The position numbers were made by a program, and so were the translations under genes. The notes below the pieces were generated by a model. It saw only the letters and a program-made list of their open reading frames with translations. It ran no database searches and was not told the origin of the DNA. From positions 1-59,785 of the forward strand of contig JAUWCL010000020.1 in the NCBI GenBank assembly GCA_030609325.1: a stretch of 59,785 nt of DNA. The letters run 5' to 3'. This stretch comes from Candidatus Krumholzibacteriota bacterium. Its GTDB lineage: Bacteria; Krumholzibacteriota; Krumholzibacteriia; Krumholzibacteriales; Krumholzibacteriaceae. Shown in pieces: positions 16,097 through 51,956 of this stretch (position 1 is its first letter; every line of letters begins with the position of its first letter).

Positions 16097-16741
16097 ATGT
16101 TCAAAGGAAAAGTCCTGCTTTTCTCTTTGCTGCTGGTTTTCGCAACCTCCCTTTACGCTGGCGACGTGGATGTGTGCGAAAGTAATGCCGGAACGACTTG
16201 CTCTCTGAGAGTATCGATCTGCCCGGCTGGCGATTTCGAATACATCCGCAATGGTTGCGGCGGCGACGCGGATTACATCTGGGTCGAGGTCAAGGATGCG
16301 GCTGGCGTCGGCATTGCCGGTATTCCCTGGACGGATTACTGGATGAATGCATGTGACGGTGCTCAGGAGCTCTGCCTTTGCGCGAGCCCCATAGCCGCTG
16401 ATTCGCTGACCAACACTGCCGGACGTACCACGTTCTCCGGCCGCATGGCCGGCGGTGGCTGTATTCTTACAGGCGGCATGTATGTTGCGTGTCAGGGTAA
16501 GACTTTCTTGGACGTTGCTACTTGCTCAGTTCCGATCTGTCTTGACATCGTGATCGTAAGTCCGGACATCAACGGTACCTGCGAGGTCAACCTTTCGGAT
16601 CTCAGCTTCTTCGGGCAGTCTTACAACAAGCAGCTTGGTGACGCTGGTTACGATCCCTGCTGCGACTTCAACGACGATGCTTTTTGCAACCTTAGTGATT
16701 TCTCGTTCATGGGTGAGCATTATCTGCATGCGTGCTTCTAA
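16097..16741 (+). CDS. Secreted protein with dockerin-like repeats
   Basis: A 214-residue protein with a signal peptide (MFKGKVLLFSLLLVFATSLYA). A cysteine-rich Ig-like middle part (WVEVKDAAGVGIAGIPWTDY) is followed by two calcium-loop repeats of the dockerin type: PDINGTCEVNLSDLSFFGQS (~residue 155) and DFNDDAFCNLSDFSFMGEHY (~residue 190). Ten or more cysteines suggest disulfides outside the cytoplasm. The gene follows the perfect promoter and has AGGAGG 8 bases before the ATG, and its codons (GGT, GCT, GTT) differ from the neighbours, pointing to high expression. No catalytic function is apparent. Confidence 0.75.
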   Translation: MFKGKVLLFSLLLVFATSLYAGDVDVCESNAGTTCSLRVSICPAGDFEYIRNGCGGDADYIWVEVKDAAGVGIAGIPWTDYWMNACDGAQELCLCASPIAADSLTNTAGRTTFSGRMAGGGCILTGGMYVACQGKTFLDVATCSVPICLDIVIVSPDINGTCEVNLSDLSFFGQSYNKQLGDAGYDPCCDFNDDAFCNLSDFSFMGEHYLHACF

Positions 16742-16812: not shown

Positions 16813-17373
16813 ATGAAGAGAGTACTGCTGACAGTTGCTGTTGCTCTCCTGATCCCCTCAATCCTGGCGGCTGCTCCGGCAAACGTAGGCGTGTATTTCG
16901 ACGGAAGTCTGGCGTACATTCCTACGGGAGACATTGGAGTGCCGTTCGTTGGTGCCTTGTACATAGTACAGAACGAGCACTATGTGACTGGTGTAGAGTA
17001 CTGTCTGGTCACCCCCAATGACCCGGCTCATGCTCAGTTCGTCATCACGGGATACACCTATCCGCCCTCTCATGCGCTTACGCTTGGCGATGTGTGGAGC
17101 GGACATTCGGTGACCTACTGGCCGCCGCTGACCGGTTATCCCGAAGGTTATGATCTTCTGGTCACGTACGAGTGCAGAGTTCTGCAGCCGTGCTCGGAGA
17201 TGTGGGACTACCCCATTGTCGTCTCGGCGCATCCGGATTCTGGGTATCTGCGTGGTACTTACGCCCCCGACCACGAACTCTTCGAAATCACTGGCCTGAC
17301 TTCGTACATATGTCCGGAGCTGATCGGTACCGAGGAAGAGAGTTGGGGAGCGATCAAGTCCATGTACAGGTAA
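16813..17373 (+). CDS. Small secreted protein with W-G-A-I-K tail
   Basis: A 186-residue protein of unknown function. It has a signal peptide (MKRVLLTVAVALLIPSILAA) and a beta-rich body with paired cysteines, and ends in GTEEESWGAIKSMYR, the tail shared with the next three genes. I start it at the ATG at 16813 (GGGAG upstream, immediately before the signal peptide) rather than the GTG at 16795. Unlike the following paralogues, its body begins ANVGVYFDGSLAYIPTG and is only remotely similar to theirs. It is the second gene behind the strong promoter. Confidence 0.75.
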   Translation: MKRVLLTVAVALLIPSILAAAPANVGVYFDGSLAYIPTGDIGVPFVGALYIVQNEHYVTGVEYCLVTPNDPAHAQFVITGYTYPPSHALTLGDVWSGHSVTYWPPLTGYPEGYDLLVTYECRVLQPCSEMWDYPIVVSAHPDSGYLRGTYAPDHELFEITGLTSYICPELIGTEEESWGAIKSMYR

Positions 17374-17393
17374 GGAAGAAAAGTCGCAGGTCA

Positions 17394-17419
17394 TGGCTGG
17401 ATGAATCCTCATCCAGCCA
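17394..17419 (+). other. Strong hairpin without T-tract
   Basis: TGGCTGGATGA (17394-17404) pairs perfectly with 17409-17419 across ATCC. It lies 20 bases after the stop of the W-G-A-I-K gene. A GC-rich sequence follows, so intrinsic termination is doubtful; a 3'-end stabiliser or partial attenuator is possible. Confidence 0.5.
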
Positions 17420-17554
17420 GGGGCCGGCGGGGAAGGGAGGTGGTGAGTGGAGACGGTATTTGCTTGAAACTGCTCAGCACCGTTGATCTTCCTGCTACCG
17501 ATTACACGGGCTGAATGAATTGATCAAGTTATCTTCAGCAGGAGTGAGACAGAG

Positions 17555-18097
17555 ATGAAGAAAGTTCTACTGACAATCGCAGTGATCGCTCTATTCGCGG
17601 TATCCGCTTCAGCGACCCCCGTGCTGAGCCTCTGGGCCGACGACGCGATGACCAGCATTGACGTTATGACTGGTGCTCCTTACCAGCCGTTCAACGTCTA
17701 CGTGTTCCTGGAGCCTGGAGTTGACGGCGCCTTCGCCGTTGAGTACAAGCTTGAGATACTGCCAGGCCATTTCTCGAGCGCTCAGGCAATAAACCCGGTC
17801 GTTTCGGCCGCCACCATCGGTGTCTGGTTCGGATCTCCCGGCATCAGCGCTCCGTTCACGAGCTGCCAGACCGAATTATTCTGGGTCGTCAACCTGACCA
17901 TGATGGCTCCGGATACCGCACCTGGTTACTACACGCTCGAGCTGAACGACAACTCCCAGTTCATGGGCGTCGCGATCTGCCCGGGGGACCGTCCTATGGT
18001 CGACGCGACCGCTCACGATGACTTCGGCTTCAACACCGATGGCATCGTTGGAACTGAGGAATCGAGCTGGGGCGCGATCAAGAGCATGATGGACTAA
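17555..18097 (+). CDS. Small secreted W-G-A-I-K family protein (copy A)
   Basis: A 180-residue secreted protein of unknown function. The signal peptide is MKKVLLTIAVIALFAVSASA. The mature part begins LSLWADDAMTSIDVMTGAPY, contains GVDGAFAVEYKLEILPGHFS, a Cys in PFTSCQ, a second Cys in GVAICPGD, and ends in GTEESSWGAIKSMMD. The mature region is about 90% identical in DNA to the next gene. A GGAGTGAGA Shine-Dalgarno precedes the ATG. It probably folds as a single beta-sandwich; no active site is recognisable. Confidence 0.75.
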   Translation: MKKVLLTIAVIALFAVSASATPVLSLWADDAMTSIDVMTGAPYQPFNVYVFLEPGVDGAFAVEYKLEILPGHFSSAQAINPVVSAATIGVWFGSPGISAPFTSCQTELFWVVNLTMMAPDTAPGYYTLELNDNSQFMGVAICPGDRPMVDATAHDDFGFNTDGIVGTEESSWGAIKSMMD

Positions 18098-18135
18098 TGT
18101 CTGCTTTTGATGGTTCCGTTTGATTAAAAAAGAAA

Positions 18136-18166
18136 GGGGGGGATTCGAAGCTCCCCCCCCTTCTCT
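18136..18166 (+). terminator. Rho-independent terminator after copy A
   Basis: Seven G (18136-18142) pair with the C-run at 18153-18160, preceded by an A-rich stretch and followed by TTCTCTTCTCTT. The T-tract is interrupted, so termination may be partial. Confidence 0.65.
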
Positions 18167-18219
18167 TCTCTTAAGACAACCTTGGTTTGCTGGAATTTTT
18201 GCAGGAAAAGGATAAGAAA

Positions 18220-18762
18220 ATGAAGAAAGCGTTAATTATCGCGCTGGCAATGTTTATGATTTCGGCCCCCGCGACTGCCCAGCAGCTCAGCCTCTGGGCC
18301 GACGAAGCGATGACCAACATTGACGTTATGACTGGTGCTGCTTACCAGCCGTTCAACGTCTATGTGTTCCTGGAGCCTGGAGTTGACGGCGCCTTCGCCG
18401 TTGAGTACAAGCTTGATATACTGCCAGGCCATTTCTCGAGCGCTCAGGTCATAAACCCGGTTGTTTCGGCCGCCACCCTCGGTGTCTGGTTCGGATCCCC
18501 CGGCATCAGCGCTCCGTTCACGAGCTGCCAGGTCAGTACCTTCTGGGTCGTCAACCTGACCATGATGGCTCCGGATACCGCACCTGGTTACTACGTGCTC
18601 GCGCTGAACGACAACTCCCAGTTCATGGGCGTTGCTACCTGTGAAGAGCCGCTTCGTCCTATGGTCGACGCGATCGCTCACAACGAATTCGGCTTCAACA
18701 CCGGGGGCGTCATTGGAACCGAGGAGTCGAGCTGGGGCGCCATCAAGAGTATGATGGAATAA
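18220..18762 (+). CDS. Small secreted W-G-A-I-K family protein (copy B)
   Basis: A 180-residue paralogue of the preceding gene. Its signal peptide, MKKALIIALAMFMISAPATA, is unrelated in sequence, but the mature region is nearly the same (LSLWADEAMTNIDVMTGAAY) and it ends in GTEESSWGAIKSMME. The start is the ATG at 18220, with AGGAAAAGGA upstream; the in-frame TTG at 18187 has no support. It is followed by a strong terminator. The function is unknown. Its close likeness to copy A suggests recent duplication or gene conversion. Confidence 0.75.
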   Translation: MKKALIIALAMFMISAPATAQQLSLWADEAMTNIDVMTGAAYQPFNVYVFLEPGVDGAFAVEYKLDILPGHFSSAQVINPVVSAATLGVWFGSPGISAPFTSCQVSTFWVVNLTMMAPDTAPGYYVLALNDNSQFMGVATCEEPLRPMVDAIAHNEFGFNTGGVIGTEESSWGAIKSMME

Positions 18763-18789
18763 CCAGAGCTCTCTATCGGTCGATTATAA

Positions 18790-18820
18790 GGGGAGGCCCG
18801 CACGGGCTTCCCCATTTTTA
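18790..18820 (+). terminator. Rho-independent terminator of the secreted-protein cluster
   Basis: GGGGAGGCCCG (18790-18800) pairs with CGGGCTTCCCC (18803-18813), with one G-T pair, and is followed by ATTTTTATT. Confidence 0.9.
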
Positions 18821-18880
18821 TTCGAGACTGCCCGTTCCTTCCGCTTCACCTGTTCGTGTATCCCAGGCTGAAACCTCTTC

Positions 18881-18909
18881 TGGAAAAATCCGGCGAAACG
18901 TGCTATAAT
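18881..18909 (+). promoter_or_regulatory. Promoter of the fourth W-G-A-I-K gene
   Basis: TGGAAA (18881-18886), a 17-bp spacer and a perfect TATAAT (18904-18909). This gives the gene at 19016 its own transcription start downstream of the terminator. Confidence 0.65.
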
Positions 18910-19015
18910 GCGACCCGTAAGAGAGGCACATCAGCCGTACATCCCCGGGCATATCATCAAGACATTCATCGAGACGCTACCGCATCAGCGCCTGGTTTTT
19001 GTCAGGAGGTTTGTC

Positions 19016-19552
19016 ATGAACAGATTCCTGATCGCGGCAGTCCTGATCTGTGCGTTCGCCGTGCCCGCGCAGGGTCAGTATTTCAGCCTTTGGGCTGATG
19101 AGGGAAAAAGCACGTCCGAGTTCTGGACCGAGTCTTCCTATCAGGTCTTCACGATCTACGTCTTTCTCGATCCCGGCACGGACGGCGCCTTCGGCGCGGA
19201 GTACAAGATGACCGGCCCGACCGGGCATTTCTCGACGGGAAACACCGCTGCGCCGTTTATCTCGGCCGCGATGATAGGTAGCCCGTACGGCGCTCCCGGT
19301 ATCAGCGCGGGATTCACCAGCTGTCAGAACGATACGGTCTGGCTCTTCGCGGTCAGCTGCATGGCTTCGAGTCTCGATCCGGGCATCTACACTATCGATG
19401 CGAACGACAACAGCAGCTTCCGCGGGATCGCCACGTGCGCCGAGCCGGACAGGCCCCTTGCCGAGGCAAAAACCTACAACAGCTTCTGCTACAACACGAG
19501 CGATGGCAGCACCGAGGACGCGACCTGGGGAGCCATCAAGAAACAGTACTGA
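19016..19552 (+). CDS. Small secreted W-G-A-I-K family protein (diverged copy)
   Basis: A 178-residue diverged paralogue. Signal peptide MNRFLIAAVLICAFAVPAQG; the mature start FSLWADEGKSTSEFW matches LSLWADEAMT of copies A/B. It keeps TDGAFGAEYKM, the Cys in GFTSCQ, NDNSSFRGIATC, and ends in STEDATWGAIKKQY. The ATG at 19016 has AGGAGG 7 bases upstream and is therefore preferred over a start at 18908. Codon use here is closer to the genome average (more GGC/GCC) than in copies A/B, suggesting lower expression or a longer residence. Function unknown. Confidence 0.75.
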   Translation: MNRFLIAAVLICAFAVPAQGQYFSLWADEGKSTSEFWTESSYQVFTIYVFLDPGTDGAFGAEYKMTGPTGHFSTGNTAAPFISAAMIGSPYGAPGISAGFTSCQNDTVWLFAVSCMASSLDPGIYTIDANDNSSFRGIATCAEPDRPLAEAKTYNSFCYNTSDGSTEDATWGAIKKQY

Positions 19553-19697: not shown

Positions 19698-22600
19698 TTG
19701 AGAAGAGTCCATGCGAGATCCACGCACCGGTGGATTCTATATACATCGTTTATGACAGCTGTCGTCATGGCGGCGGCCGCGGCAGTTCCGATGGATGAAG
19801 CCATTGCGTCCGGCCCGGGGGCGAAGGTCCTCCGTTCGGACGGTTCCTCCGTCACGTTCGAGATAACCGTACCGCCGCCGCGCATCGAGCGCGGCGGCGA
19901 CGGCGCCCGTGTCGTCCTTCGCGGATACGGCACATTCTCTCCTCCGGGAGCGCCGATGCTTCCCGGCAGGACCTTTCATGTCGCCGTACCGGCGGACGGC
20001 GATCCTTCCGTTTCCTGGACCGTGACGGACAGTGAAGACCTGGGCCGTCTTCCCCTCGGCCGGGTCATGGCCGAGAGGTTCGTCAGGTACGGGGAGGACG
20101 GGATCCCCGTCACCGAGATGTATCTTCCCGAAGATCCCTGGGACGGCAGGATACCGACGGTAGCGGTCATTCCAGCACGCCCGGCGATGATGGGAAGGCA
20201 GAGGGTCCTGCCCGTACGGGTGAGTCCGCTCACGGGGCGGGACGGTAGTTACAGCCTGGCGAGAAGGATCACCGTCACGGTCTCGTTCGGGCCTTCCTCC
20301 GGCGTCCTGCCGGACCGGTCCGGACAGGCCGCCGGAACGGTCCTCTCGGGCGCCTGGAAGAGGATGTACGAGAGAGTCCTCGTAAACCCGTCCGACACGG
20401 AACGCCTCATATCTCCCGTAAAGAGCAGGCCGGCCGCACGCTCGTCCCTGCAGGCGGGGAGGAGGCTCAAGATAAAGATACCCGAAACGGGAGTCTACTC
20501 CGTACGCGCCGACTCTCTTATAGCCTCGGGCCTTTCGCTGTTCCTGTCGAACAACGGGTTTGCGCTGAGGAAACTCTACTTCGACGAGACCGGGCCGGAC
20601 CTGGTGAGGGAAGTCGACATCCCTTACCGGGTGATCAAGGGCTCGGAGTCGGCGGCCGGTATCTTCGGGGGGGATGACCTGCTCGTCTTCTTTGCCAGGG
20701 GAGTCAAGGACGACGTTGATGCGGGGGATACGACGGCCGTCTTCAACAGCTACAACGTCATCTGGCTTTTCGAGGACGAAGCCGGCGCCGTCATGCCTGA
20801 CGGGCCGGGATTCCCATCGGGAGCGGGGTCGCCGCAGTCGAGCTTCGTTCACGCCGAGAAGGTGCGGAAGGATACGTGGTACCACAAATACGTCAGGGTG
20901 GGGATGAAGGACTTTAACTGCGTGGCCGGCCCCGAGAGGGACGAGGTCGCCGTTCCCTTCACCGTTCACGACGCCGAGCCGGGAAGCGTCTTCTCGGTCC
21001 ACATCAGGATCCTCGGATACGAGAAGAGCAATCCGAGCCAGGACCTCGACTTCTTCATCCGTAATTCCGGCGGCACCCGGGCGATAGGAAGCGGTTTCAT
21101 CTCCTCGACAGAGGAGAAGGTTTTCAATTTCGACATGATCCAGGTCAACAGGCTCGACGAGGGGGCGAACAAGATCGTCGTGACGAGCAGGGACGAGACA
21201 TACGGTTTCCTCGTAAACGATATGGTGGTGAAATACTCGCGGACGACGGCCGTGTGGGACGACTACCTCGATTTCACGGTCAGTCAGGACCTCGGGGAAA
21301 AGAGGGTCGAGATATCGGGATTCAGCGGGCAGGACGGTTATCTCGTCGAGCTGACCGATCCCGATGCGCCGGTGTTCCACGACATCCCTGCCGATTCGTT
21401 CAGGGCCGACGACGGCTCGTACACACTCTCCCTGACGGTTCCCGCGGCGACAGACAGGCGTTTCGTAGCGCTGGGCCGCGGCGCGGGAATGCATATCAGC
21501 AACATATGGATCGATTGCGAGGTGAGCGCGGCGAACGATCTGCGCTCGAGCCCCGGTCCGTACAACACGCTCGTAATAGCGCACTCGGACTTCCTCCCGC
21601 CCGTCAGCGGCTACCTCGCGCAGTACATATCGTGGAGGGAAGCACAGGGCTACAGGATCCTCGGGGCCGATGTCAGGGACGTCTACGATGAGTTCAACGG
21701 CGGGCTCGTCTCGGCCGACGCGATCCGCAGATTCATCAGGTACGGCGTCGAGAACTGGGGCGTGGAGTTCGTGCTGCTGGTCGGCGACGCGAGCGAGGAT
21801 CACCGGAGGATCTTCATAGGCGATCCGCCGGAGACCCGCGGTTCGCCTCCCGATTATGTTCCGGCCTACACGTACAGCGTCAATGTGATCGGCAGAGACA
21901 AGGACGAGGTAGTGGCATCCGACAAGTATTACGCCTTCCTCGACGAGGCGCCGCCCTCCGGGTACGGCTATGCCGCCCCCGGAGCCGAGGCGCCGCCCTC
22001 CGGCGGCTCCGACCCTCTGTATCTGCCGGCGGCCGCCTACCCTGACGTGTTCGTTGGCAGGCTGCCCGTCGGGCGCGAGCTCGAGCTCAGGGCCATGCTC
22101 ACGAAGATGTACAGGTTCGAGGAGCCTGCCATCTCCGATTCGTGGCGCAGGTCGATGGTCCTCTTCTCCGACGACGCATGGTCGGGATACCTGTCGTCTT
22201 ACGCGTACCACTCGATCGAGCACCATTTCGAGTACGGCATGGACTCGGTCGCTGTAAAAATTGACGAGGCCCTCCCCGGAGGCTTCGACGTCCACAGGCT
22301 CCATCTCTCCAAGTGGACGGACGGGGTCCACGACGACCTGCAGGGAGGCACCCGGGTCCTCAGCGAGGCGACCGACTCGACGCGCAGGTATTTCACGCCG
22401 TACCTCAACAGAAAGCTCAACGACGGGTGTCTCTTCTTCTCCTTCCAGGGGCATGCATCGAGGTCGAATTTCACGACCGAGGCCGGATTTTCCAACTTCA
22501 ACCAGTACCAGGACGTCGACAGCCTCCGCTACGACCGCAACCACATATTCTTCGGCCTGGGCTGCCATATCAGCGATTTCGCGCTGATGATGGAATATTC

Positions 22601-23861
22601 CCGTTCGGGGCTCGATGGACCGAACGGCGACTGCATCACCGAACAGCTCCTGTTCAAGTCCAGGGCGGGCGCGGTCGGCACGTACGCAAGCACTGGATTC
22701 GAGTACCTTCTCGAGAACAAGTATTTCTGCACGACGATGCACGAAGTGATATTCCAGAGGCCGCCCGTCGATTCGATCCCGCCGGCAAACGAGCAGACGG
22801 GGGCCAGATGGATCCTCGGCGAGGCCTTGACCGCCAGCGAGATCGAGCATCTCGGCACCGCATCCTATGCTTACGGGCAGCTCTACAGGTACGTGCTCCT
22901 CGGCGATCCGATGCTTCGTATAGAACCGGGTCCGCCGCTGATGACCCTGTCGGCCGACTGGGGAAACGGGATGCAGGAGCTCCCCGCCGATACACTGCGC
23001 TCCCGGAACAGGACTAATACCTGCAGCCTCATGTTCAGCGCGAGCGATGTCGTTGCGCTCGGAAATATCGAATTCCTGGTGGCCGGCGAGGACAGGACGG
23101 GCGATCTGACGGTCACCCCCACGGTGGACGAGGGCCTGGACTTCGCGAGGGGCTATGAGGCAAGGGTGGACTATACGGTAAGCCTCGACGAGCAGTCGCT
23201 CGTGTTCAGGATATATTCTCCCGGCGGCCTGGAAACGGGCGTGAAAGAGCTCCACACCGCCGTTTCGATGAGGCTGTACAACGGCTCGCGGGAGATACCG
23301 CCCGGCGGAGAATCCCCGGCCGAAGGCGAGTTCCTCCTCGACATGCAGTTCCCCGTGTGGCTCGATGCGGCTCCGCAGATCATGCTCGACGACCACGATC
23401 TCGATGGCGCGGCGGTGCAGGCGCCCGATCCGCAGGATTCGACGGGCTGGGAGGCAAGGTTCACCCGGACCCTGGCGGCGGGCGATCATTTCCTGACAGT
23501 CGCCGTCGGGGAGTACAAGACCGACTATCCTTTCACAGTGGGAGGAAGCGGTCTGGTCATGGACGCCTTCAACTTCCCCAACCCGTTCGACGAGGGCACG
23601 AATATCTGCTACTCGCTCAACATCGATGCTGACGCCGGGATCATCAGGATCTACAACGTCAGCGGTATCCTGATCAGGGAGATCGTGATCCCGCGCAGCC
23701 TGCTCGGTGCTGCGCCGCCGGGCGCTCCCAATGCCGTCTGGTGGGACGGCAGGGACATGGTAGGCGACAGGGTCGCGAACGGGACGTATATCTACATGAT
23801 CTATGTGGAGAAGGATGGCGGCACCGTAAGCTTCACGGGCAAGGCCGTCCGCCTCGAGTAG
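19698..23861 (+). CDS. Gingipain-family (C25) cysteine peptidase with FlgD-like C-terminal domain
   Basis: A 1387-residue exported protein. A signal peptide (~residues 10-37) and a propeptide-like beta region lead to the C25 caspase-like fold (~residues 620-1080): DYVPAYTYSVNVIG, PDVFVGRLPVGRELEL, then the catalytic His919 in FQGHAS and Cys956 in GLGCHISDF. The C-terminal ~95 residues (FNFPNPFDEGTNICYSL, IRIYNVSGILIREI, WWDGRDMVGDRVANGTYIY) form the FlgD-like/type IX-type beta domain. The start is the TTG at 19698, with AAGGAGAG upstream. The N-terminal part recalls PorU (KIKIPETGVYSVRADSLIASG), so it may be a sortase of a type IX-like system or simply a secreted protease. Confidence 0.85.
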   Translation: MRRVHARSTHRWILYTSFMTAVVMAAAAAVPMDEAIASGPGAKVLRSDGSSVTFEITVPPPRIERGGDGARVVLRGYGTFSPPGAPMLPGRTFHVAVPADGDPSVSWTVTDSEDLGRLPLGRVMAERFVRYGEDGIPVTEMYLPEDPWDGRIPTVAVIPARPAMMGRQRVLPVRVSPLTGRDGSYSLARRITVTVSFGPSSGVLPDRSGQAAGTVLSGAWKRMYERVLVNPSDTERLISPVKSRPAARSSLQAGRRLKIKIPETGVYSVRADSLIASGLSLFLSNNGFALRKLYFDETGPDLVREVDIPYRVIKGSESAAGIFGGDDLLVFFARGVKDDVDAGDTTAVFNSYNVIWLFEDEAGAVMPDGPGFPSGAGSPQSSFVHAEKVRKDTWYHKYVRVGMKDFNCVAGPERDEVAVPFTVHDAEPGSVFSVHIRILGYEKSNPSQDLDFFIRNSGGTRAIGSGFISSTEEKVFNFDMIQVNRLDEGANKIVVTSRDETYGFLVNDMVVKYSRTTAVWDDYLDFTVSQDLGEKRVEISGFSGQDGYLVELTDPDAPVFHDIPADSFRADDGSYTLSLTVPAATDRRFVALGRGAGMHISNIWIDCEVSAANDLRSSPGPYNTLVIAHSDFLPPVSGYLAQYISWREAQGYRILGADVRDVYDEFNGGLVSADAIRRFIRYGVENWGVEFVLLVGDASEDHRRIFIGDPPETRGSPPDYVPAYTYSVNVIGRDKDEVVASDKYYAFLDEAPPSGYGYAAPGAEAPPSGGSDPLYLPAAAYPDVFVGRLPVGRELELRAMLTKMYRFEEPAISDSWRRSMVLFSDDAWSGYLSSYAYHSIEHHFEYGMDSVAVKIDEALPGGFDVHRLHLSKWTDGVHDDLQGGTRVLSEATDSTRRYFTPYLNRKLNDGCLFFSFQGHASRSNFTTEAGFSNFNQYQDVDSLRYDRNHIFFGLGCHISDFALMMEYSRSGLDGPNGDCITEQLLFKSRAGAVGTYASTGFEYLLENKYFCTTMHEVIFQRPPVDSIPPANEQTGARWILGEALTASEIEHLGTASYAYGQLYRYVLLGDPMLRIEPGPPLMTLSADWGNGMQELPADTLRSRNRTNTCSLMFSASDVVALGNIEFLVAGEDRTGDLTVTPTVDEGLDFARGYEARVDYTVSLDEQSLVFRIYSPGGLETGVKELHTAVSMRLYNGSREIPPGGESPAEGEFLLDMQFPVWLDAAPQIMLDDHDLDGAAVQAPDPQDSTGWEARFTRTLAAGDHFLTVAVGEYKTDYPFTVGGSGLVMDAFNFPNPFDEGTNICYSLNIDADAGIIRIYNVSGILIREIVIPRSLLGAAPPGAPNAVWWDGRDMVGDRVANGTYIYMIYVEKDGGTVSFTGKAVRLE

Positions 23862-23940: not shown

Positions 23941-24648
23941 TTGGAAAAGCGGCTCGAACTCTTGAAAAAAAGCAAGGCGAGGGTGATCGTCGGCATCGAG
24001 ACCGGCAGCGTGCCCGGCAGGATCGGCGCCGTCATCGTGGAAGTGAGCGGAAGCGGGGCGGACACCGTCCTCGACCTTTACTCCTTCCAGAGCGTCGAAC
24101 TGCCCCCGGAGCTCGTCGCCGCGCTGGAAGCGGTCGCCGGCGAGAAGGAGATCGACACCCAGGAGCAGGCGGACGTCAATTTCCTCACCCTGCACCATAT
24201 CAACACACTCTTTTTCGAACTCCTCGAAGAGGCGGAAGTCGATCCCGGCGAGGTCGACCTCATCGGACTCAAGGGCATGGAGATCGGCGGGATGGAGTTT
24301 CCCGACGACCCCGGTGCTCTCAGTGAGATGACCGACTGCATCGTCGCGGCCTGTTTCAGGATCGGTCCCGAAAAAGGTCGAGACAGCTGGCTCCCTGTGA
24401 AGGAAGCTATCCTCAAGGGCATGGTCGAGGCGATGGTGGAGAAGTATGATCTAGACGAGGAGGCCAGGGAGGCCGTCGCGGTCGCGCTGCTGGCCAACGA
24501 GTCGGTCCATCACGAGGCCCTCACGGCGAAATGCTCCGATGAGGGCGGTTCCGGCGCCGATACGGTATCGCGGCGCACCATCACGGTGCGGCAGGCAAGC
24601 GGCGGGGAACCGGCTCTCCACGGAGAGTTCTATTTCCCGGCGGACTGA
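23941..24648 (+). CDS. AnmK-like protein lacking the kinase core (probable pseudokinase)
   Basis: A 235-residue protein that I align by eye to the two ends of anhydro-N-acetylmuramic acid kinase. IVGIETGSVPGRIGAVIVEV occupies the place of the S-G-T-S-x-D-G-x-D-A motif. INTLFFELLEEAEVDPGEVDLIG matches the helix before the Asp/Gly-His strand. ALSEMTDCIVAACFR resembles the A-E-x-T-G...V-A-D-F-R segment. EEAREAVAVALLANESV matches the C-terminal helix. The SGTSxDG nucleotide loop and the large central part with the catalytic Asp are missing, so phosphorylation is unlikely. The start is the TTG at 23941, with CGGAGG ahead. It is followed by SpoIID- and NagZ-type genes, which supports a link to cell-wall metabolism. 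Confidence 0.55.
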   Translation: MEKRLELLKKSKARVIVGIETGSVPGRIGAVIVEVSGSGADTVLDLYSFQSVELPPELVAALEAVAGEKEIDTQEQADVNFLTLHHINTLFFELLEEAEVDPGEVDLIGLKGMEIGGMEFPDDPGALSEMTDCIVAACFRIGPEKGRDSWLPVKEAILKGMVEAMVEKYDLDEEAREAVAVALLANESVHHEALTAKCSDEGGSGADTVSRRTITVRQASGGEPALHGEFYFPAD

Positions 24649-24706
24649 AAAGTGTGCCGCCGCCGATGCGGGAGATTGTCCCTGGCATCCGGCGGGATCG
24701 ATATAT

Positions 24707-26038
24707 ATGAAGACGATCTTTCGATATATCCCCTCCTTTCGAACGACCGCGGCACTGTCGGCGGTCGTGCTGGCGGTGTCACTTGTGATGGTCTTTTCCT
24801 GCGCTGCGCCCGACAGGAGAGCCTATTCGCCCGTAGAGATCTTGCCGGAAACGAAGACAGATTTGCCCGGGGGGGACGATATCCCCGTGGTACGCGTGCT
24901 GGTGCTCGAGACGGAGGACCGCATCAGGATCGACATTCCCGGCGGCCAGGTCGCCGCGAAATCGGAGGACGGGCGGACGATCGGCAGGTTCGAGGTGAGC
25001 GGGACCGTCGCCGTATCGAAGACGAGAAACGGCCTGAGGCTGAAGCAGAGGAACGGGCCTGTTCACGAGGCGCCGGTCATGGAGGTCCGGCCGTCGGGGG
25101 ATGAAGGGTTCACGATCGAAGATACGCCGTACAGGGGAGGACTGCTTCTGCGCCGGCGCGGCGGGAAGACGATCCTCGCGATAAACGTCATCGAGATCGA
25201 CGACTACCTCAAGGGCGTCCTGCCCGCAGAGATCGGATACCTCAAGGAAGGGCAGTACGAGGCGTACAAAGTACAGGCGATCGCCTCACGCTCCTACGCG
25301 TTGAGTAAGCTCGAGGAGAAGAAGAACGAGCCCTACGATATGAGGGCCACGATCATGGACCAGGTCTACAGGGGTATCAAGGGTGAGAACAGGATCGCCT
25401 CCGAGGCGGTGGACAGGACAAGAGGGGTCGTCGGCGTCTGGGACGGAGAGCCGATAAGGGCGTATTACTCCGCCTGCTGCGGGGGGCATACATCCGATAT
25501 CCGCGTGGCCTGGCCGTGGAAGGCCCATTATCCCTACCTGTACGGGCGCAGGGACGCGCCGGGAGAGAGCGGCAAGTCGTACTGCCGGGAATCGAGGCGC
25601 TTCAGGTGGGAAGTCGTCTGGAGCGGCAGTGACCTTTCGAGGATCACGGGCAAGACACTGCCGGCCGAGCTCGGCGGCAGGGTGGCCCCGTTCAACGTCA
25701 TCCGCGATATAAAGGTGGTCGGGCACGCCCCGAGCGGCAGGGCCAGGGTGGTCGAGATCGTTACCGATAACGGCACCCACAGGGTCGAGGGCGACCGGAT
25801 CCGGTGGGTGCTGAGGCCCGAATCGGCCAGGGGGCCGATCCTGAGGTCCACACTCTTCAAGATGGAGGTCAGCAGGGGCGGTGGACGGGTAAAGCAGGTC
25901 CGCCTCAAGGGCGGAGGGAACGGCCACGGTGTCGGCATGTGCCAGTCGGGAGCCATCGGGATGGCGTCCGAGGGATACAGCGCCGAGAGGATCCTCGCCC
26001 ACTACTACCCCGGGGCTGCGCTGGTCAAGATCTACTAG
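24707..26038 (+). CDS. SpoIID/LytB-domain cell-wall protein
   Basis: A 443-residue exported protein, possibly a lipoprotein (LVMVFSC|AAPD near residue 30). The SpoIID domain occupies ~residues 150-440: LAINVIEIDDYLKGVLPAEI, AYKVQAIASRSYALSKLE, AYYSACCGGHTSDI, and the C-terminal GGGNGHGVGMCQSGAIGMA. Members are lytic transglycosylases or amidase enhancers acting on peptidoglycan glycan strands. The ATG at 24707 begins the signal sequence, with GGCGGGAT upstream; earlier in-frame codons overlap the preceding gene. It lies between the AnmK-like gene and NagZ, a set consistent with release and recycling of anhydro-muropeptides. Confidence 0.88.
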   Translation: MKTIFRYIPSFRTTAALSAVVLAVSLVMVFSCAAPDRRAYSPVEILPETKTDLPGGDDIPVVRVLVLETEDRIRIDIPGGQVAAKSEDGRTIGRFEVSGTVAVSKTRNGLRLKQRNGPVHEAPVMEVRPSGDEGFTIEDTPYRGGLLLRRRGGKTILAINVIEIDDYLKGVLPAEIGYLKEGQYEAYKVQAIASRSYALSKLEEKKNEPYDMRATIMDQVYRGIKGENRIASEAVDRTRGVVGVWDGEPIRAYYSACCGGHTSDIRVAWPWKAHYPYLYGRRDAPGESGKSYCRESRRFRWEVVWSGSDLSRITGKTLPAELGGRVAPFNVIRDIKVVGHAPSGRARVVEIVTDNGTHRVEGDRIRWVLRPESARGPILRSTLFKMEVSRGGGRVKQVRLKGGGNGHGVGMCQSGAIGMASEGYSAERILAHYYPGAALVKIY

Positions 26039-49690: not shown

Positions 49691-49719
49691 TTGCCCCCAG
49701 AAATAATAGATGATATACT
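49691..49719 (+). promoter_or_regulatory. Promoter of the M28 peptidase gene
   Basis: TTGCCC (49691-49696), a 17-bp spacer and TATACT (49714-49719) with an extended -10 TG (TGATATACT). Its start point (~49726) lies downstream of the first in-frame ATG (49710), which supports the later TTG start. Confidence 0.6.
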
Positions 49720-49754
49720 ATAACAAAAGGTCTCCTTTGGAAAGGAATTTCCGG

Positions 49755-51956
49755 TTGAAACGCTTCATACCGAGGCAGCAGCAGGCCGGAACCCGCATCG
49801 ATGCGGCGCCGGCGCCTTATCTCGTTCTGATCCTTCTTTTCACCCTTCAGATTACGCTGCCGGGCAGCCGCGGGGCATCGGCGCAGGGATGCGGCCTGTG
49901 CGCGCTGGCGGGAAGGATCGATCGCGAGGAGCTGCTTGCAACCGTACGGGAGCTGAGCGGAGCCGACCCGGTGACAGTCGGCGGCGTCAGTCAGATCATA
50001 TCGACGAGGTCGACCCTGCTGCCGGAAAAGCTTGTCGCAAGGGACTATCTTCTCGAGCGCGTGGCGGGCCTGGGCTATAACGCGGTGCGGCAGGCTCATC
50101 CTCTCAGCGTTTACTATCCCGACCTGCTGGCCGCGGAGGTCTCGGTGACGGGCGAAAGCCTGTGGACAGGTTCGGACGAGGGCGAGGTCTTCCTGATGAC
50201 AGCCGCGGGCGGCTGGGACGACACGCATGTCATATCGAGGATAGACGCGAGGATCTACGATCTCGCACTCGACCATTTCGGCACGCTCTGGGCGGCATGC
50301 AAGACGAAGGGAGCGGGGTACGGGGAGCTGCATTGCTCCGCTGACGGGGGCGAGACCTGGCAGGCGAAGGTGATCGGCAACACGACGAACAACGTCCTCG
50401 CGCTCAGCTCGATCGCCTTTTCTTCGCCTGAAGCCGCAATCGTATCCGGTTCGTACGGGACGGCGTTCAGGATGCAGTATTACGGGGGTGACTGGTACAT
50501 CCACTATTTCGACCCGGCCGAATTCTACTACAGGCAGCTCAAAGGCTCGGGCTCTTCCGGGCCGATGCACGTCTGGATCGTGTCGACGGGCGGGACGATC
50601 TTCGAGAGCGAGGATCTCGGCGCGACGTGGACCGACACGACCCCGTGGCCGAACAACCTCTGGGACATCGATTTCTGCGGCCCCGACAGGGGGATCGCCG
50701 TGGGAGAGGACCTGACGTATTACACCGGCGACGGAGGCAATACGTGGAACATGGTCGCCGTTAACGCTTCCCTCTACACGGTGACGATGCTCGACACATT
50801 ACGGGCGGTCGCGTCCGGTGTGTACGGGCATATCTGGACCACCGACGACGGGGGCGTCACATGGTCGGAGCTCGCGCATGACTGCACCCGCGACGAGGAT
50901 ATCAGGGAAACGGTCCTTTCTCCCTCTGACACGATCTGGGCCGTCGGAAGGAACATGCCTCTTAGGCTGGAGCTCGGAGGGACGGAGGTCGTCTGCCGGC
51001 AATGGGAGCTGGCCGACACGATCTGGGGCGAGAACATCGTTTTCGGCAGCGAGGGGCAGGCGCTGCCCGGCGAGAAAGTCGTCGTCTGCGCGCACTACGA
51101 CTCGAGAAACTGGCAGGATCCCTACTGCGCGCCCGGCGCCGACGACAATGCCAGCGGGTGCGCCGGCGTGCTCGAGATCGCGAGGGTATTCGCGGTCGCG
51201 GCATTCGAGAGATCTATCGAGTACATACTCTTCGACGGTGAGGAGATCGGACTGATCGGCAGCAGGTATTACGTTGCAGAGCGGGACACCGACCTTACGA
51301 TAGATGCCGTAATCAATCTCGACATGATCGGCAGGGATTACGGGGGAGGGGTCACATTGCAGATCGCCGGCAGGGACGATCCCCTCGATTCGGCGCTGGC
51401 GGCGCTGATCGCCGACATGGCCGGCTTTCTCCAGCTCGATCTCGACTGCAACTACCTGTACGGCTCGTCGCCGACGAGCGACCACAAGGCGTTCTGGGAG
51501 ATAGAGGGCGTCCCGGCGATCCTGCTGATAGAGAACGAGTACCGCAACAATCCGCACTATCATGACCACTCGGACATCGCCGACTATATCGATTTCGATT
51601 TCATGACAGATGTAGTAAAAGCCGCCGCCGGCTCCGCCGCCGAGCTGGCGGGGCTGATACGCACGGATCCGCTCCCCTCGACCGTCGTGCTCCACCAGAA
51701 CTTTCCGAACCCTCTGTTCAACCACACGAGGATTCGATTCGAGCTGCCGTCGCGCCTGCCTGTCGACCTGACCCTGTTCGATCTGGCCGGCAGGAAGGTA
51801 GTGGTGATGATAAGGGATACACTCGACGGGGGACGGCATGAATTCGTCTGGGACGGGAGGGGCCCCTCGGGCGAGGACATCGCCAGCGGGGTCTATTTCC
51901 TCCGGCTGCAGGCCGACGGCATGGACCGCGTTCGCAAGGTCGTCATCGTGCGCTGA
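49755..51956 (+). CDS. M28-family aminopeptidase with inserted beta-propeller and FlgD-like tail
   Basis: A 733-residue exported zinc peptidase. After a signal peptide (PYLVLILLFTLQITLPG) comes the short N-terminal M28 part, then BNR/YCF48-like propeller blades (~residues 110-410: SADGGETWQAKVIG, FESEDLGATWTDTTPW, TTDDGGVTWSELAHD). The M28 catalytic domain follows: VVVCAHYDSRNWQDPYCAPG, ADDNASGCAGVLEI, FDGEEIGLIGS, INLDMIG. The last ~90 residues are a FlgD-like/type IX-type domain (NFPNPLFNHTRIRFELP, WDGRGPSGEDIASGVYFLRL). The start is the TTG at 49755, with GGAAAGG upstream. Its targeting is likely the same as that of the C25 peptidase. Confidence 0.88.
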   Translation: MKRFIPRQQQAGTRIDAAPAPYLVLILLFTLQITLPGSRGASAQGCGLCALAGRIDREELLATVRELSGADPVTVGGVSQIISTRSTLLPEKLVARDYLLERVAGLGYNAVRQAHPLSVYYPDLLAAEVSVTGESLWTGSDEGEVFLMTAAGGWDDTHVISRIDARIYDLALDHFGTLWAACKTKGAGYGELHCSADGGETWQAKVIGNTTNNVLALSSIAFSSPEAAIVSGSYGTAFRMQYYGGDWYIHYFDPAEFYYRQLKGSGSSGPMHVWIVSTGGTIFESEDLGATWTDTTPWPNNLWDIDFCGPDRGIAVGEDLTYYTGDGGNTWNMVAVNASLYTVTMLDTLRAVASGVYGHIWTTDDGGVTWSELAHDCTRDEDIRETVLSPSDTIWAVGRNMPLRLELGGTEVVCRQWELADTIWGENIVFGSEGQALPGEKVVVCAHYDSRNWQDPYCAPGADDNASGCAGVLEIARVFAVAAFERSIEYILFDGEEIGLIGSRYYVAERDTDLTIDAVINLDMIGRDYGGGVTLQIAGRDDPLDSALAALIADMAGFLQLDLDCNYLYGSSPTSDHKAFWEIEGVPAILLIENEYRNNPHYHDHSDIADYIDFDFMTDVVKAAAGSAAELAGLIRTDPLPSTVVLHQNFPNPLFNHTRIRFELPSRLPVDLTLFDLAGRKVVVMIRDTLDGGRHEFVWDGRGPSGEDIASGVYFLRLQADGMDRVRKVVIVR

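Follow-up and report, generated by a model that had tools for sequence, protein, structure and literature searches.

Why do four consecutive genes for small secreted proteins end in almost the same short peptide, when the body of one is barely similar to the others? The question is posed by a stretch of 59,785 nucleotides (the window) from a Candidatus Krumholzibacteriota bacterium (contig JAUWCL010000020.1, assembly GCA_030609325.1). An earlier note on this DNA read the shared tail as a sorting, anchoring or assembly signal. Four observations support that reading: the tail sits at the very C-terminus, it is more alike than the bodies that carry it, those bodies are diverse, and on homologous bodies it is exchanged for the type A domain of the type IX secretion system (T9SS). 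As far as sequence can tell, the tail is very probably a C-terminal sorting or targeting signal. The four open reading frames (ORFs) and their C-termini are confirmed, and all four N-termini look by eye like signal peptides, in keeping with their description as secreted:

16813-17373, + strand: secreted protein of 186 aa with a signal-peptide-like N-terminus; tail GTEEESWGAIKSMYR / IGTEEESWGAIKSMYR; profile match 17311-17370.
17555-18097, + strand: secreted protein of 180 aa; tail GTEESSWGAIKSMMD; profile match 18032-18094.
18220-18762, + strand: secreted protein of 180 aa, a paralogue (82%) of the 17555 protein; tail GTEESSWGAIKSMME; profile match 18700-18756.
19016-19552, + strand: secreted protein of 178 aa, a paralogue (45%) of the 17555 protein; tail STEDATWGAIKKQY; profile match 19493-19549.

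The low similarity claimed for the body of the 16813 protein is borne out. It is a distant relative of the 17555 protein (28% over 206 columns, E 7e-7, from a single comparison), and its best local match to the 19016 protein is formed by its own C-terminal 44 residues. Its syntenic homologues, in regions fetched from relatives, retain the tail. Inference from the window alone is weak because these four proteins are mutually related.

The genome to which the window belongs, as contig C21, measures 2.63 Mb and is 95% complete. A search of its DNA for W-G-x-[ILMV]-K close to a stop codon has low specificity, with 24 places against 14 for the reversed pattern. Fifteen of the 24 are frames ending in the tail; the window contains four of these, and the other eleven lie on C2, C16, C25, C47 and C50 (once each) and on C18, C26 and C30 (twice each). 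The remainder comprise one row that is a repeat and eight out-of-frame or internal places, among them the non-secreted-looking L012, where W-G-P-L-K lies 14 residues from the end. A signal-peptide-like start is visible by eye in 12 of the 15 tail frames. A 21-position profile (A1) built from the 15 tails picked out 16 places in this genome at E 8e-11 to 3e-4, the sixteenth being a 79-residue frame on C16 (E 3e-4); the next matches follow at E 0.019, where W-G-I-I-K lies 17 residues from the end, and at E 0.31. This result exceeds chance. A Pfam scan of seven tail proteins of this genome gave one lamin-tail domain and no family for the other six. Two partial paralogues of the 17555 type stand in tandem at G000:C16:40934-41547, the first without a signal peptide in frame and the second a C-terminal half with a weaker tail; this looks like decay or local duplication.

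The tail is widespread in the phylum. Profile A1 matches all of the 58 related genomes, and a second profile (A2), built from 53 tails, finds the tail in 79 of 80 genomes of the phylum at up to 49 places per genome; both sets include the window's genome. A strict DNA pattern, run over named genomes, returned at least 117 stretches, all of which were read in frame. Lineage labels, which are NCBI names and may differ from those of GTDB, were counted by hand on the 80 titles listed: 32 Candidatus Eisenbacteria, 6 Krumholzibacteria, 2 Effluviviaceae, 2 UBP1, 3 Latescibacterota, 2 Zixiibacteriota, 3 Gemmatimonadota or Gemmatimonas, 9 Bacteroidota in the wide sense (Ignavibacteria, Kapabacteria, Rhodothermales, Balneolales and others) and 21 labelled simply 'bacterium'. 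No label among these 80 titles names Pseudomonadota, Actinomycetota, Bacillota or Cyanobacteriota. By this DNA scan the tail occurs in Krumholzibacteria, Eisenbacteria, Latescibacterota- and Gemmatimonadota-labelled metagenome-assembled genomes (MAGs), Zixibacteria and deep-branching Bacteroidota. A UBP1 genome (UBA4771) and one with a Latescibacterota label appear, from identical coordinates, to be members of the window's own family and class.

Whole-genome counts (E<=0.01) were made in 22 genomes picked from the 117 loci. Three Eisenbacteria have 22, 19 and 59 places, an Effluviviaceae MAG 53, a UBP1 genome 15, Latescibacterota-labelled genomes 34 and 8, and Gemmatimonad-labelled genomes 18, 38 and 20; two further bacteria reach 83, the maximum, and 70. 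The ten Bacteroidota and Zixibacteria genomes have one place in seven cases and none in three, whose tail scores too weakly. In a viral contig collection the strict pattern gave 3 stretches against at least 117 in genome contigs, a comparison that is not normalised for the differing sizes, and the W/G-swapped pattern gave no match in that collection. Three IMG/VR contigs (L333, L334 and L335) encode proteins with convincing tails and are probably bacterial DNA inside the viral collection.

The tail comprises about 15 residues with the consensus [VIT]-[PAS]-[TV]-E-x-[ST]-[ST]-W-G-x-[IV]-K-[SA]-[LM]-[YF]-[RK]-COOH. Among 198 distinct tails G follows the W in 197, S or T precedes it in 181, I, V or L stands at +3 and Y or F at +7 in 188, and the segment from W through the end inclusive measures 8-11 residues in 197, figures that are biased because the selection rule demanded W and K and a length of 8-14 residues, and because some of the tails had been collected with a DNA pattern in which the end is preset. 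A less biased profile run over 3861 frames of loci L033-L105, themselves brought in by profile searches, gave 70 matches at E<=1e-3, with W-G-x-[ILVMF]-K in 66 of 67 distinct tails. The matches are strictly C-terminal: 69 of the 70 end 0-2 residues before the stop and one ends 5 before it. An alignment of 72 cluster representatives (three of 75 were left out as fragments) has no invariant position besides the selected W, G and K. At positions not preset by selection, the tail is more alike than the body in each of the three largest clusters (0.69/0.35, 0.45/0.22 and 0.41/0.29), which extends what the earlier note had seen in the window. An upstream cysteine was considered as part of the signal and rejected; it lies at -8 to -12 from the W in 91 of 219 proteins but in 21 of 75 clusters, and at -28 to -32 in 19 of 75 (first member of each cluster), and it seems to belong to some of the bodies.

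The bodies that carry the tail are diverse. Using blastp at E<1e-3, 219 distinct tail proteins fall into 73 body clusters, 46 of them singletons, so that the tail is not limited to close paralogues of the window's proteins. With its terminal position, this means that neither of the two outcomes named by the earlier note as refuting its reading was observed. The three largest clusters hold 88 of the 219, and 28 share one cluster with the 17555-type proteins. Signal-peptide-like starts, by a crude rule, occur in 190 of the 219 tail proteins versus 248 of 1627 control frames, which include spurious frames. Different Pfam families appear among the bodies, some adhesion-like or beta-rich (LTD, beta-helix, NHL, CBM). 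A scan of 72 representatives against NCBIfam, with 25 of 28 families shown, identified, in one member each, choice-of-anchor V, E, J and F, ExeM-GG, ScyF (PEP-CTERM) and MXAN_6652 (MYXO-CTERM), names which imply that relatives of these bodies bear other sorting tags elsewhere.

A swap with a known sorting domain also bears on function. Bodies of the 17555 type also occur inside three larger proteins of the same genome, L257 (701 aa), L258 (1002 aa) and L259 (1344 aa), which end in FlgD/type A-like domains, not tails. Against TIGR04183 (cut-off 23) these score 33.6, 20.8 (just under) and 31.1 bits, respectively; against PF18962 (cut-off 27) L257 scores 29.5, above, and L259 19.4, below. A set of 28 ORFs with type A-like ends, picked by regular expression from the loci collected, contains homologues of the three largest tail clusters. 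The relationship is clear for the 17555 cluster (E 2e-19) and for the third cluster, whose partner L108 (E 2e-26) passes TIGR04183 (32.6). By these comparisons the tail and the T9SS type A domain replace each other on homologous bodies. The tail is therefore probably a hitherto undescribed signal that directs proteins to the cell surface.

The machinery that reads type A domains leaves its trace in the same phylum. SprA_N (PF14349) was found in 66 of 78 genomes; of the 12 apparent absences, a lineage profile recovers 11 and the last is a 61% complete MAG, which brings SprA to 77 of 78. PorV is likewise present in 77 of 78 at E<=0.001, with 72 over the cut-off, although the model may also catch related barrels. 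Neither of these Pfam families was detected in any of 14 control genomes. The window's own genome has SprA (2162 aa; G000:C26:102275-103531 and L260 6275-12760) and PorV (G000:C10:147814-148485). This is noteworthy because published accounts confine the T9SS to Bacteroidota (PMC4793230; PMC10202324).

Bacteroidota offer a comparison within that phylum. A small secreted protein resembling a fibronectin type III (FnIII) domain occurs in Bacteroidota-type MAGs and one Zixibacterium (loci L111, L118, L121, L129, L131, L151, L153, L154, L167, L175 and L176) and ends in a close variant of R-T-W-G-x-[IL]-K-x-[ML]-F-[RQ]; those scanned matched no Pfam or NCBIfam family over the cut-off. The sample was 296 genomes from the phylum of an Ignavibacteria-labelled MAG, with matches to the tailed protein listed to about E 6e-14. 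Among the matches listed, the full-length protein, with the end of the model reached, is present in 113 genomes, and the tail is present in all 30 of the loci fetched. SprA, found in 227 of the 296, accompanies the tailed protein in 112 of these 113 genomes versus 115 of the 183 others, again among the matches listed (table 112/1/115/68; Fisher p 6e-16, with non-independent genomes). The single exception is the MAG used as the centre. The FnIII body also matches stretches within much larger Bacteroidota frames, and of two plasmid matches to it one (E 6e-6) is annotated 'T9SS type A sorting domain-containing protein' and the other is a LamG-like protein. Two main contexts recur in the 30 loci: SpoIID/Maf/MATE-like genes, and a sub-threshold DUF6055 protein with a TonB-receptor-like gene (MATE and TonB-receptor names by eye). 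A SpoIID-type gene adjoins the tailed gene in 11 of the 30 (PF08486 for the one scanned), and no single partner gene is shared across them.

The window's tail genes also lie in a partly conserved neighbourhood. In order, the genes are a dockerin-like gene, the four tail genes, a PorU-like C25 peptidase gene, the 23941 gene, a SpoIID gene and a GH3 gene, of which the following flank the tail genes most closely:

16097-16741, + strand: secreted protein without the tail, 5' of the tail genes, with a dockerin-like C-terminal doublet (by eye).
19698-23861, + strand: C25 peptidase resembling PorU, the T9SS sortase (Pfam C25 E 2e-57; NF033707 PorU E 3e-38, 131 bits vs a cut-off of 420).
23941-24648, + strand: protein of no Pfam family, a syntenic neighbour; order conserved in 5 regions from relatives.
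24539-26038, + strand: SpoIID-domain protein (PF08486), a syntenic neighbour.

Fifteen regions were taken from relatives, some of which stop at a contig border. In six of them (L318, L319, L321, L322, L329 and L331), from two families, the C25 gene lies directly 3' of the tail genes, and in five of these six the 23941-type and SpoIID genes come next. Homologues of the 16097 protein, whose doublet reads DINGTCEVNLSDLSFF ... DFNDDAFCNLSDFSFM and which had no match in a Pfam scan, also stand upstream of the tail genes in six of the 15 regions. The C25 peptidase aligns with NF033707 over residues 251-1102 and bears a FlgD-type C-terminal domain that falls below the Pfam cut-off. The co-occurring sortase-like enzyme that the earlier note had suggested looking for may therefore be this neighbour, which is syntenic in some relatives; its resemblance to PorU stays below the cut-off of the model. 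Synteny suggests that this peptidase may be a partner of the tail.

These observations can be combined into a model. Tail proteins would reach the periplasm by an N-terminal Sec signal peptide, and their last ~15 residues, [TV]-E-x-[ST]-[ST]-W-G-x-[IV]-K-x-[LM]-[YF]-[RK]-COOH, would be recognised by an outer-membrane SprA-PorV export module, possibly through PorV or a PorV-like barrel. The protein would then be handed to the cell surface or the medium. In the same cell, the tail would serve small secreted proteins as the ~80-residue T9SS type A domain serves large ones, and next to the window's tail genes the PorU-like C25 enzyme may trim or attach tail proteins. A short linear C-terminal sorting signal for export of the SprA/PorV type is the explanation of the sequences that we favour overall, with reasonable rather than high confidence; for the SprA/PorV route taken by itself, belief only slightly outweighs doubt. 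Going further, the tail could represent a T9SS-type cargo signal of a new class, in which a linear peptide of ~15 residues does the work of a folded domain. In Krumholzibacteriota, Eisenbacteria and allied phyla it would serve dozens of proteins per genome, and in deep-branching Bacteroidota it would have been kept on one conserved FnIII protein. We put this forward tentatively, as somewhat less probable than not.

Several observations count against a sorting signal read by SprA and PorV. The swap is seen in 3 of 73 clusters only, and for the FnIII cluster the match to a type A-ended ORF is weak (27% over 78 residues, E 1e-6). In most of the sets the selection rule preset W, G and K, and three of the 15 own-genome frames have no signal peptide (160 aa on C16, 54 aa on C26, and one on C18 cut by the locus end). 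At E<1 in blastp the body clusters collapse to 15, with 199 proteins in one; we ascribe this merging to chance and signal-peptide links and judge the looser clustering uninformative. The co-occurrence of SprA and PorV with the tail is undiscriminating within the phylum because both are near-universal there. Common descent confounds the FnIII/SprA association in Bacteroidota, and among the matches listed, where some may be missed, the tailed protein is absent from 115 genomes that have SprA. The GldM motor domain (GldM_1st) was over the cut-off in none of the 78 genomes and below it in one (E 0.001), although a diverged protein could escape this search. A canonical T9SS is for this reason not established in the phylum; SprA and PorV without a detected GldM, outside Bacteroidota, are possibly a motor-less outer-membrane module of the T9SS. 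The PorU-like gene adjoins tail genes in no more than the six of 15 regions, tail genes occur without a C25 neighbour in at least L323, L327, L328 and L332, and none of 14 other stretches of the window's genome has a C25 homologue nearby, matches there being to its C-terminal domain only. AlphaFold models of two window proteins have mean pLDDT values of 36 and 33, and no fold search was based on them; in both, the tail is modelled as a helix of low confidence.

The main rival is that the tail serves as an anchor or docking peptide once a protein has been exported, by whatever route, and binds a surface receptor such as an S-layer, a PorP-like barrel or a scaffold. A short linear peptide with a tryptophan would fit a binding pocket, the adhesion-like or beta-rich bodies and the dockerin-like protein syntenic with the tail cluster count in its favour, and PorP/SprF proteins have been proposed to anchor type B substrates (PMC10202324). 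Yet the tail stands in for type A domains, which are export signals, and this swap, together with the names of the body families, favours a role in sorting over that of a generic binding motif; we regard docking as unlikely, though a serious contender. It is improbable that the tail is read by a different exporter or by a periplasmic component (type II secretion, a chaperone or a protease). The choice-of-anchor bodies would be compatible with that, since MYXO-CTERM and GlyGly-CTERM proteins depend on type II secretion (PMC11980579), but within one genome the tail is exchanged for a T9SS type A domain, and SprA is present in almost every genome listed with the tailed FnIII protein.

Two further explanations leave sorting aside. 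Like some arrest peptides, the tail is terminal and rich in W, G, I and K, which would suit a role of the last residues in the ribosome, or as a degradation tag of the degron kind. The tail, however, occurs at many places per genome instead of marking one regulator, and swaps with a sorting domain, so that such a role is very improbable. Shared descent, with one diverged paralogue family keeping its end for no signalling reason, draws on the kinship of the four window proteins, the size of the 17555-type cluster and the merging at E<1; it is set against the 73 clusters at E<1e-3, their differing Pfam families and the excess of tail over body identity. Paralogy alone was rejected on the clustering at E<1e-3 and the differing families, and this explanation is scarcely credible.

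The short linear signal can also be compared with described systems. The type A domain (TIGR04183, PF18962) resembles it in lying C-terminally on unrelated Sec-exported bodies, in the same organisms and together with SprA and PorV; tail proteins, like type A cargo, combine a Sec signal peptide (by the crude rule) with a C-terminal signal (by the profile ends). The type A domain is, however, Ig-like with seven strands (PMC10202324), versus a tail of ~15 residues. For Prevotella intermedia, 'short' type A forms with 43-55 residues have been described, and the last 22 residues of Hbp35 are reported to be absolutely required for secretion of GFP (PMC11969387). The type A models matched none of the tail proteins scanned and are absent from the Pfam families of the 72 representatives and from the 25 of 28 NCBIfam families shown, their matches being confined to the swap partners. 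The known T9SS signals are types A, B and C, with B (TIGR04131, PF13585) and C as C-terminal alternatives to A (PMC10202324); type B motifs cover the last ~100 residues, with >200 needed in fusions, unlike the tail. PF13585 is absent from the 19 Pfam families of the representatives, and TIGR04131 from the NCBIfam families shown.

The PEP-CTERM, GlyGly-CTERM and MYXO-CTERM tags are alike in being short C-terminal tags on many unrelated exported proteins, dozens per genome, and share some body families with the tail. MYXO-CTERM is tripartite, combining a motif with a transmembrane helix and a basic end, and PEP-CTERM is tripartite too according to the same paper (PMC11980579). As the earlier note stated, the tail differs in lacking a membrane helix: the printed tails have no long hydrophobic run by eye, and no tag model matches most of the 72 members. 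An existing model of the tail should do so, and no Pfam or NCBIfam model was found over it, the commonest family matching 2 (Pfam) or 3 (NCBIfam, 25 of 28 families shown) of the 72. A literature search with tail strings and topic found no description, the strings bringing up one irrelevant paper, a weak negative since most subscription papers and all preprints lay outside its scope. The tail is probably undescribed among C-terminal sorting signals.

C-terminal tags have repeatedly opened the way to new sorting enzymes and export routes, and the present tail labels numerous secreted proteins of phyla for which metagenomes are almost the only source. It lets hundreds of unnamed proteins be assigned as exported and offers a handle of ~15 residues. 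If it works with SprA and PorV, few signals for that translocon would be shorter; the role of the two proteins outside Bacteroidota would be explained, and the export module could be told apart from the rotary motor. If it is a new class of cargo signal, export through SprA and PorV would extend far outside Bacteroidota, where it might do without the GldLM motor. The tailed FnIII protein, present in 113 of the 296 Bacteroidota genomes among the matches listed, may give entry to cultivated relatives.

Two minor observations concern genes near the tail or elsewhere in the window. SpoIID-domain genes stand beside tail genes in two distant lineages, at 24539-26038 of the window and at 1897-3225 of L280. 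At 49710-51956 the window encodes an M28 peptidase with BNR-type repeats and a FlgD-type C-terminal domain that scores 24.9 bits, just under the Pfam cut-off, and this protein is another candidate for a type A-like route.

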